DNA from: Catellatospora vulcania
GTDB lineage: Bacteria > Actinomycetota > Actinomycetes > Mycobacteriales > Micromonosporaceae
Direction: 5' to 3'
DNA length: 64,000 nucleotides
NCBI RefSeq assembly: GCF_009720385.1
Contig: NZ_WARX01000001.1
Span: 496,001-560,000, forward strand
Made by a program: the position numbers and the translations under genes. The notes beneath the pieces were generated by a model. That model was not told the DNA's origin. It saw only the letters and a list, made by a program, of their open reading frames with translations, and searched no databases. This document shows, piece by piece, positions 1,779 to 8,413 of the stretch (the first letter of the stretch is position 1; each line of letters begins with the position of its first letter).

Positions 1779-3200
1779 ATGACGATGCTCAGCGAGCCTG
1801 ACGCATTGACCGGGCCGTCCGTCCACTGCGACCTGCCCGGACCCCGCTCGGCCGAACTGCTGGAGCGCCAGCAGCGCCGCGAGTCGAACGCACGTACCTA
1901 TCCCCGCAACCTCCCCATCGCCATCGCCGAGGGTTCCGGCAGCTTCGTGCGCGATGTCGACGGCAATGTGTTCATCGACTTCCTGACCGGCGCTGGCGTG
2001 CTGTCGCTCGGCCACAACCATCCCGAGCTGGTCCGCGTCGTCACCGCCCAGCTCGGCCGGCTGACCCACGCGCTGGACTTCCCGACCCCCGCCAAGGACG
2101 CGTTCATCGAGGCCCAGCTGTCCATGCTGGCCCCTGGCCTGCGCGAACGCATGCGTGTGCACTTCTGCGGCCCGACCGGCGCGAACGCCATCGAGGCCGC
2201 GATCAAGCTGTGCAAGACCGCCACCGGGCGCGGCGACATCGTCTCGTTCCAGGGCGGCTACCACGGTGGCAGCCATGCCGCGATGGCGATGTCCGGCCTG
2301 GTCTCGCAGAAGCGGCCGATCGCCAACGGCATGCCGGGCGTGCACTTCTTCCCGTACTCCTACTGCGGCCGCTGCCCGGTGGGCCTGCGGCCGGACAGCT
2401 GCGAGACCAACTGCGCCGGGCTGCTGGAGAAGTCGCTGCTCGACCCGAACGGCGGCATCGCCCGCCCGGCCGCGGTCATCCTGGAGCTGGTGCAGGGCGA
2501 GGGCGGGGTCATCCCGGCCACCCGCGACTTCGTCCGGCGGATCCGGGCGCTGACCCGGTCCCTGGACATCCCGCTGATCGTCGATGAGGTGCAGACCGGC
2601 TGCGGCCGCACCGGCACCTGGTTCGCGTTCGAGCAGTACGACATCGAGCCTGACGTGATCGTCGCGTCGAAGGCGCTGTCGGGCATCGGCACGCCCGTCG
2701 CGCTGATCATGTACGACGAGCGGCTGGACGTGTGGCAGCCCGGCGCGCACACCGGCACGTTCCGGGGCAACCAGCTCGCCTTCGCCGCGGGGGCGGAGGC
2801 GGTCCGGATCCTGCACCGCGACCAGATCCTGGCCAACGTACGCGAGCGCGGGGCGCAGGTGGCCGACCGGCTCGGCGAGCTGCAGGGCCACCCCGTGGTG
2901 CGCGAGGTGCGCGGCCAGGGCCTGATGTGGGGCGTTGAACTGGCCGATCCCGGCGACGGGCGCTCGGCCGGGCAGCTGGCCCGCCAGGTGCAGAGCCGCG
3001 CCCTGCGCAGCGGCCTGATCATCGAACTCGGCGGGCGTGACGACTGCGTCATCCGGATCCTGCCGCCGCTGAACGTGACCGCCGAGGTCGTCGACATCGC
3101 CTGCGGCATCGTCATCGACGCCATCGAGGAGTCCGCCCGCGCCGCCACCGCGGTGGGCGAGCCGGCCGCTTCGCACGCACGGGCGGACGGCATGGGCTGA
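1779..3200 (+). CDS. Class III aminotransferase, diaminobutyrate--2-oxoglutarate type
   Basis: The 473-residue protein is a PLP fold-type I aminotransferase: G-G-Y-H-G-G-S-H-A-A-M near residue 165, the cofactor aspartate in I-V-D-E-V-Q-T-G-C-G-R-T-G, and the Schiff-base lysine in V-A-S-K-A-L-S-G (K298). It resembles diaminobutyrate aminotransferases (EctB/Dat), which convert aspartate semialdehyde and glutamate to L-2,4-diaminobutyrate. Four cysteines (C196, C199, C208, C212) form a Cx2Cx8Cx3C group in an insertion, a possible metal site. AGGAG lies 5' of the ATG. There is no ectA or ectC beside it, so ectoine synthesis is unlikely. Its neighbour is a Pls-type synthetase, suggesting that it supplies that enzyme's monomer. 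Confidence 0.85.
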   Translation: MTMLSEPDALTGPSVHCDLPGPRSAELLERQQRRESNARTYPRNLPIAIAEGSGSFVRDVDGNVFIDFLTGAGVLSLGHNHPELVRVVTAQLGRLTHALDFPTPAKDAFIEAQLSMLAPGLRERMRVHFCGPTGANAIEAAIKLCKTATGRGDIVSFQGGYHGGSHAAMAMSGLVSQKRPIANGMPGVHFFPYSYCGRCPVGLRPDSCETNCAGLLEKSLLDPNGGIARPAAVILELVQGEGGVIPATRDFVRRIRALTRSLDIPLIVDEVQTGCGRTGTWFAFEQYDIEPDVIVASKALSGIGTPVALIMYDERLDVWQPGAHTGTFRGNQLAFAAGAEAVRILHRDQILANVRERGAQVADRLGELQGHPVVREVRGQGLMWGVELADPGDGRSAGQLARQVQSRALRSGLIIELGGRDDCVIRILPPLNVTAEVVDIACGIVIDAIEESARAATAVGEPAASHARADGMG

Positions 3201-3228
3201 GCAGCGGCGCGCCGCGAGGCGCCCCGTC

Positions 3229-3288
3229 CGAATGCGGCTGTCCGGCGCGCCGCCCCGCGGCGACGCGCCGGACCGGCCGCCGCATTCG
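3229..3288 (+). repeat. Long hairpin between aminotransferase and synthetase
   Basis: Two 10-bp perfect stems stack: 3229-3238 with 3279-3288, and 3240-3249 with 3264-3273, around a 14-nt loop. No T-tract follows. It could be a partial terminator that sets the ratio of the two products, or an mRNA stabiliser. Confidence 0.55.
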
Positions 3289-3367
3289 CCGAACGCGGCC
3301 CGCCCGCCCCGTGCGGGCGCCGCCCGTTCCACTCAGCCGTCCTTGTCGTCCGCGGAGGGAGAAGCCC

Positions 3368-8413
<5,046 letters not shown>

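Follow-up and report, generated by a model that had tools for sequence, protein, structure and literature searches.

Does a synthetase of the Pls/PosA family that carries a phosphopantetheinyl transferase (PPTase) domain at its own C-terminus prime its own carrier domain? The question is raised by a gene pair within a 64,000-nucleotide stretch of an 8.8-Mb Catellatospora genome (G000:C1:496001-560000; hereafter, the window), which a sequence-only reading had interpreted as a self-priming synthetase paired with an enzyme that supplies its monomer. An answer requires consideration of what the pair would produce, of how the PPTase domain came to be fused, and of how its active site has fared among related bacteria.

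The gene pair and its predicted product

The two genes are arranged head-to-tail on the + strand, at positions 1779-3200 and 3368-8413. The first encodes a class-III aminotransferase of 473 amino acids belonging to the diaminobutyrate (Dab)--2-oxoglutarate aminotransferase family (TIGR00709, dat; 434 bits vs. a cut-off of 401.6), a putative supplier of L-Dab and the sole match over that cut-off genome-wide, in agreement with the diaminobutyrate-type partner proposed earlier. The second is an unbroken reading frame of 1681 amino acids (ATG at 3368, stop at 8411-8413), the start of which agrees with the residue numbering in prior use, and is assigned by profiles as a Pls/PosA-family synthetase with a C-terminal PPTase domain. 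Those flanking genes scanned with Pfam are ordinary, consisting of an LppX_LprAFG lipoprotein gene on the opposite strand 5' of the pair and of alanyl-tRNA-synthetase-like (tRNA_SAD), PfkB-family and Indigoidine_A-family genes 3' of it, and a promoter and terminator scan detected no signal.

Within the synthetase, Pfam profiles and alignment place an adenylation (A) domain at residues 62-540 (3551..4987; AMP-binding profile at 62-396, its C-terminal part at 458-534), followed by a thiolation (T), or carrier, domain at 567-629 (5066..5254; PP-binding profile). The acceptor of the latter, S592 (5141-5143), is invariant, with serine present in 17/17 aligned rows, some of which are duplicates. Residues 658-1354 (5339..7429) compose a Pls/PosA terminal domain of hydrophobic segments and acyltransferase/hexapeptide-like units, the TIGR02353 score of which (631.8 bits vs. 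a curated cut-off of 423.1), together with the A and T domains upstream, bears out the earlier assignment to the Pls type; no condensation or thioesterase domain was found in the synthetase by a Pfam scan at E 0.001. Of the three transmembrane, acyltransferase-like units described earlier, three clusters of hydrophobic segments are recovered by simple hydropathy only (661-723, 899-969 and 1153-1210), a single hexapeptide stretch exceeds the Pfam cut-off (1304-1337), and the count of three thus rests on the Pls/PosA family match. A linker (1355-1405; 7430..7582), the second half of which aligns with the N-terminus of P0011, leads into the PPTase domain (1406-1612; 7583..8203). The chain closes with a basic tail (8204..8410) that has low AlphaFold confidence where modelled and ends in a segment, ILAxGxVxAR, kept across Catellatospora.

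The identity of the monomer is addressed by the specificity pocket of the A domain. Using positions placed from what we take to be the PheA motif anchors, alignment yields the code DFECLSVVTK and so reproduces the pocket read previously by eye, D-F-E-C-L-S-V-V-T. The code was then compared with gene neighborhood in 40 Pls loci (chosen, not random) and the window; loci with an aminotransferase (phmmer score >150 bits) were counted if their frame included an A domain. The code DFECLSVV(T/S)K was observed in 18/18 loci with an adjacent aminotransferase (DFECLSVVTK in 17 and DFECLSVVSK in one, L077) and in 0/22 without one. The 18 represent four genera, and because the loci are related the counts are not fully independent. 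The 22 loci lacking an aminotransferase in the fetched stretch display the codes DAESIGTVVK, DFEY(L/I)GTVTK, DGESVSVVNK and DSECYGGVTK. The last of these, found in the Pls protein at L098:3947-8200, is the code of a Bdellovibrionales enzyme for which modest arginine activity is reported (PMC10522769). A search of the literature for the letters DFECLS returned no match.

Two further loci displayed irregular frames. L096, excluded from the code count since an aminotransferase is present in the stretch and the frame is without an A domain, contains the T-C half of a synthetase (L096:5882-10126) with a C-terminal extension of 577 amino acids that includes a repeated segment, GGGGSDALA...VEGGPTERAPVG. 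At L084:3066-4624, the aminotransferase beside the synthetase of genome G350 is split over two frames that overlap, apparently through a frameshift or an error of assembly.

As described by Patel and Gulick in the portion of their paper available, a glutamate holds the side-chain amine in the pocket, and at the second code position Ala goes with Lys, Met with Orn and Phe with the PDAP synthetase, the short-side-chain case (PMC10522769). Phe at this position combined with a Dab aminotransferase as neighbor therefore indicates Dab, the monomer named as likely in the sequence-only reading, and the co-occurrence of code and adjacent aminotransferase makes poly-Dab a well supported prediction for the product. 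That the monomer is instead a different short diamino acid (L-Dap or D-Dab rather than L-Dab) is quite improbable: the same Phe is reported for the PDAP synthetase (PMC10522769), and poly-D-Dab synthetases are known from what is accessible of a second study (PMC8225329), but it is a Dab-type aminotransferase that adjoins all 18 loci with the DFECLSVV(T/S)K code, and no Dab racemase was present among the four neighboring genes scanned with Pfam. No polymer from Catellatospora was found among the open-access literature matches listed.

Identity and distribution of the fused domain

Several lines of evidence confirm that the C-terminal domain is a real Sfp-type PPTase domain. Firstly, PF01648 (ACPS) matches residues 1511-1595 with 27.8 bits against a cut-off of 25, and with 33.5 bits in the genome search. 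Secondly, phmmer against PDB sequences matches the domain to Sfp (E 2e-4). Additionally, an AlphaFold model of residues 1370-1635 (mean pLDDT 83.9, pTM 0.82; 23 sequences) displays the two-lobe PPTase fold, and 34/37 Foldseek matches at E <= 0.001 are named PPTase or AcpS, the remaining three being 'Transferase from Mycobacterium'; the matches are led by human AASDHPPT (2cg5, 2c43) and Sfp (1qr0, 4mrt), with PptT and PptAb also found. Profile search and structure prediction, the two checks proposed in advance for this region, thus agree on its identity.

The fused gene and the adjoining aminotransferase are present in 11/11 Catellatospora genomes (the window and 10/10 further loci), and because the frame is uninterrupted in all of them the fusion is not an assembly artefact; the frameshift between the third acyltransferase-like unit and the PPTase part, named beforehand as grounds for abandoning the idea, is absent. 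A profile built on the fused PPTase and applied to 354 genomes from the family scored 405-469 bits in the 11 Catellatospora; the only further matches at E 1e-20, of 77-80 bits, came from frames of 489 and 539 amino acids in two other genera. Similarly, a contig scan of 84,980 species returned seven relatives of the domain, all in Catellatospora.

Surveys of Pls homologs point in the same direction. No fused PPTase was detected with one PPTase query (E 1e-5) in any of 30 other Pls loci, 29 of them from other genera and one, L083, being a second, unfused Pls of Catellatospora genome G003, nor in the eight of these that were re-searched with six PPTase queries. A survey of the class, a sample in which most places were judged by frame length only, identified 15 places with long or odd frames, and none (0/15) contained a fused PPTase, the extra length being accounted for by an upstream frame or an unrelated extension. 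The survey of homologs suggested by the earlier reading therefore adds 45 further Pls loci without the fused domain. In other genera, the closest synthetases (G360-G363, G366, G018 and G350) share the code, with Ser for Thr in one, as well as the aminotransferase, and end 3-53 residues past the C domain.

Sequences from outside these genomes speak to the age of the fusion. P0015 (ena) and P0016 (jgi), both short fragments, hold the end of a C domain and a PPTase in one chain and branch outside the Catellatospora clade (clade support 99%), which suggests, as far as sequence relationships can indicate, that the fusion predates Catellatospora. The nearest separate-looking protein is P0011, of 244 amino acids and about 50% identical to the fused domain. 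Capture of the PPTase from a neighboring gene was considered and set aside: only one of the seven unfused genomes, G018, has a free PPTase beside the pair, and that enzyme belongs to a different class and shows only weak similarity (27% to P0016, E 0.003). It is encoded divergently from the aminotransferase-synthetase pair at L079:12694-13371 and has a 4PPT_N domain.

PPTase-like sequences were also noted elsewhere. Weakly PPTase-like frames lie near the Pls genes in L162 and L163. In another genus, PPTase matches at G361:C20:5987-6259 and G362:C3:102171-102437 fall in frames of 1827 and 1787 amino acids on contigs other than that of the Pls locus, possibly representing another large enzyme with a built-in PPTase. 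A separate observation concerns two of the fused synthetases, L065:4813-9993 and L070:4989-10238, which are 99% identical in the A domain, 97% in the PPTase and 59% over the whole C domain. The pattern resembles that left by a natural exchange of the membrane polymerase cassette, the breakpoints lying around residues 580-640 and 1360; the donor is absent from the sequences compared.

Active-site residues and selection on the domain

The residues on which catalysis would depend are present in the window copy with one exception. The Mg and base residues of Sfp, which we take to be D107, E109, E151 and H90, correspond to D1514 and E1516 in the motif GVDLE (7907..7915), E1556 in the motif WTLKE, and H1496 in the motif SHS (7853..7855), and all four are found, including the D1514, E1516 and E1556 identified in the sequence-only reading. 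The place of the catalytic lysine, presumably K155 in Sfp, is four residues beyond E1556 and is occupied by arginine, R1560 (8033..8047 for E1556 and R1560).

Conservation of these residues was assessed in 14 distinct sequences of the Catellatospora clade, comprising the window, the 10 loci, P0003, P0004 and P0010; P0005-P0009 duplicate loci and were counted once, and the tree excludes P0012, P0013, P0020 and P0021. Four sequences (the window, L064, L067 and P0010) retain the whole His-Asp-Glu-Glu set, and the other 10 do not. Specifically, H1496 is replaced in seven, by Gln in L066, L068, L071, L072 and L073 and by Leu in L069 and P0003; D1514 is Asn in L065 and L070; E1516 is Gly in L068, L071 and L072; and E1556 is Ala in L068 and L072 and Gln in P0004. 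Loss of the two glutamates and the aspartate in orthologs, which the earlier reading had itself listed as evidence against it, is thus what the clade displays, in two (D1514), three (E1516) and three (E1556) of the 14 sequences. Since inner branches of the clade are weakly supported (48-52% in places), the number of independent losses is uncertain. In human PPTase the position equivalent to E1516 is Met in the alignment, for which reason loss of E1516 alone may matter less.

Outside the clade the active site is intact. The full set of His, Asp, Glu, Glu and Lys is present in the outside relatives P0011, P0015, P0016 and P0017 and in the more distant P0014, P0018 and P0019. It is likewise kept in 16/16 free Sfp-type PPTases checked in the same genomes, at least one having been read in each of the 11 (L114, L124, L127 and L129, as well as the short AcpS loci, were left out of this count). 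With a full set in four outside relatives, two of them visibly fused, priming in cis is a plausible ancestral function of the domain.

The consequences of such changes can be gauged from the human enzyme, for which, in the passages available, Lys185 is described as the catalytic residue and general acid, and the kcat/Km for Mg falls from 32.7 in the wild type to 0.21 in H111A, 0.016 in K185A and 0.001 in both D129A and E181A, with the Km for CoA almost unaffected by changes at D129 and E181 (PMC2148441). As a general statement, then, self-priming is not supported for the genus: the His-Asp-Glu-Glu set is broken in most copies, and arginine replaces the catalytic lysine in 14/14. For the window copy itself, the four intact residues mean that the domain may be active, and some activity may be kept, Arg perhaps replacing Lys in part, because Lys to Arg is not among the mutants reported in those passages. 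Active self-priming in this species, with S592 primed in cis, Arg1560 standing in for the lysine and the activity lost in other species, is nevertheless unlikely. It would draw on the intact residues of the window, L064, L067 and P0010, on the PF01648 match and on the intact relatives outside the clade. The general-acid position, however, is Arg throughout the clade vs. Lys in 7/7 outgroup rows and 16/16 free PPTases; replacement of that lysine by alanine in the human enzyme lowers kcat/Km for Mg ~2000-fold (PMC2148441); and L066, L069 and L073, 91-92% identical in the domain, are without the histidine.

A domain that no longer catalyzes might be expected to decay, and measures of selection bear upon this point. 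Pooled pN/pS was calculated over 28 pairs drawn from eight genomes having one class of free PPTase. It was 0.395 for the fused domain, 0.346 for the free, intact PPTase and 0.259 for the A domain, so that purifying selection acts on the fused domain almost as strongly as on the free enzyme. The difference between the first two values implies a slight relaxation of constraint, and as the fused domain exceeds the free enzyme in 21/28 pairs (and the A domain in 20/28), some relaxation in the absence of a new role is possible. Within the clade, 94/207 sites of the domain are invariant. Six outgroup PPTases share 23 invariant sites; the clade preserves 15 of these throughout, and the eight that changed are H1496, D1514, E1516, E1556, K/R1560, S1495, E1431 and G1565. 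Parsimony assigns eight steps to the four catalytic sites, or 2.0 per site vs. a domain mean of 1.14, yet random foursomes of sites match eight steps in 14% of cases, so that no excess of catalytic-site loss is demonstrated and the idea that catalytic sites evolve faster than the rest is unsupported. From these alignments, the catalytic sites appear to vary at least as readily as ordinary ones, a behavior unexpected for an active enzyme. Among the residues that do not vary in the clade are the motif WFHQEQW, R1443, R1444, R1451 and R1455; the four arginines, along with F1595, H1596, Q1597 and W1600, are identical in P0011, P0015 and P0016. These conserved residues may serve CoA or carrier binding.

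Neutral decay, in which free PPTases have taken over and a useless domain has yet to be deleted, is distinctly unlikely on this evidence. Such a course would fit the losses scattered across the clade, a pN/pS somewhat higher than the free enzyme's, and the PF01648 scores, which are 23-38 bits for the 11 fused copies vs. 55-60 for P0011, P0015 and P0016, but pN/pS remains far below 1 and close to that of an intact PPTase, many sites are held constant, and the frame is open in every genome of the genus.

Taken together, these data lead us to favor, with moderate confidence, the proposal that a once cis-acting PPTase is becoming a pseudo-PPTase, with a non-catalytic role retained and the carrier primed mainly in trans. 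Under this proposal, which builds on the demonstrated architecture, distribution among the genomes searched, residue losses and purifying selection, and for which we infer the product, the trans priming and the retained role, the gene pair would make a cationic polymer of the gamma-poly-diaminobutyrate type: the aminotransferase would make L-Dab, the A domain would adenylate it, the activated monomer would be loaded onto the phosphopantetheine arm of S592, and the membrane terminal domain would link monomers via isopeptide bonds. The fusion of an Sfp-type PPTase to the synthetase would predate the divergence of Catellatospora, and the PPTase would presumably then have primed the carrier in cis; its catalysis would subsequently have been lost lineage by lineage within Catellatospora, the fold and part of the sequence being kept. 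S592 is invariant even where catalytic residues are broken, which implies that in the broken lineages, at the least, the carrier is primed by another enzyme. Other PPTases are present in each of the 11 Catellatospora genomes, and free PPTases encoded in the same genome would now do most of the priming. The domain itself would be maintained by selection for a non-catalytic role, most likely, if conjecturally, docking to the carrier or terminal domain. More specifically, and only tentatively, the pseudo-PPTase may dock on the carrier or bind CoA without transfer and so serve as a built-in regulator or scaffold of the membrane polymerase, for example by setting chain length or by gating priming by free PPTases. 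If so, one enzyme domain could be followed from an intact active site, in fusions outside the clade, to partial erosion and finally breakage inside a single genus.

Relation to known synthetases and PPTases

Chain release and length control are described as unknown for the PDAP synthetase in the part of that study available (PMC4668381), and a retained, non-catalytic, carrier-binding domain, if true, would offer a handle on both. Given the natural series of intact to broken active sites within a soil genus, existing strains could be used to test whether the domain is a pseudoenzyme, and the association of code and aminotransferase provides a simple marker by which candidate poly-Dab synthetases can be mined from genomes. 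No Pls-type synthetase with a fused PPTase is reported among the open-access literature matches listed.

The window enzyme shares with the Pls/PosA synthetases (those of epsilon-polylysine, PosA, PDAP and poly-Dab) an A-T pair, a terminal domain of hydrophobic segments and acyltransferase-like units over the TIGR02353 cut-off, and a Glu at the diamino position of the pocket. Unlike them, it adds a PPTase-derived domain of about 210 amino acids and a tail; PosA, in the passages available, was primed with added Sfp (PMC10522769). It likewise resembles, by description, the PddA/PddB system for gamma-Poly-D-Dab of Streptoalloteichus, a single-module membrane NRPS-like enzyme in which PddA polymerizes Dab according to the accessible portion of that work (PMC8225329), but differs in its fused PPTase domain and in scanned neighbors without a Dab racemase. 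Built-in PPTases are known in yeast type I FAS and in bacterial PKSs such as CalE8, and there too, as far as the available text describes, the PPTase domain resides in the chain that holds the carrier (PMC3909215, PMC3107222); the window enzyme, in contrast, is an NRPS-like polymerase, and the active site of its PPTase domain is eroding. Finally, the domain agrees with Sfp, human AASDHPPT and PptT in fold and order of motifs, and departs from Sfp-type PPTases in being fused, in bearing Arg for the catalytic Lys, and in a His, Asp, Glu and Glu that are not conserved genus-wide.
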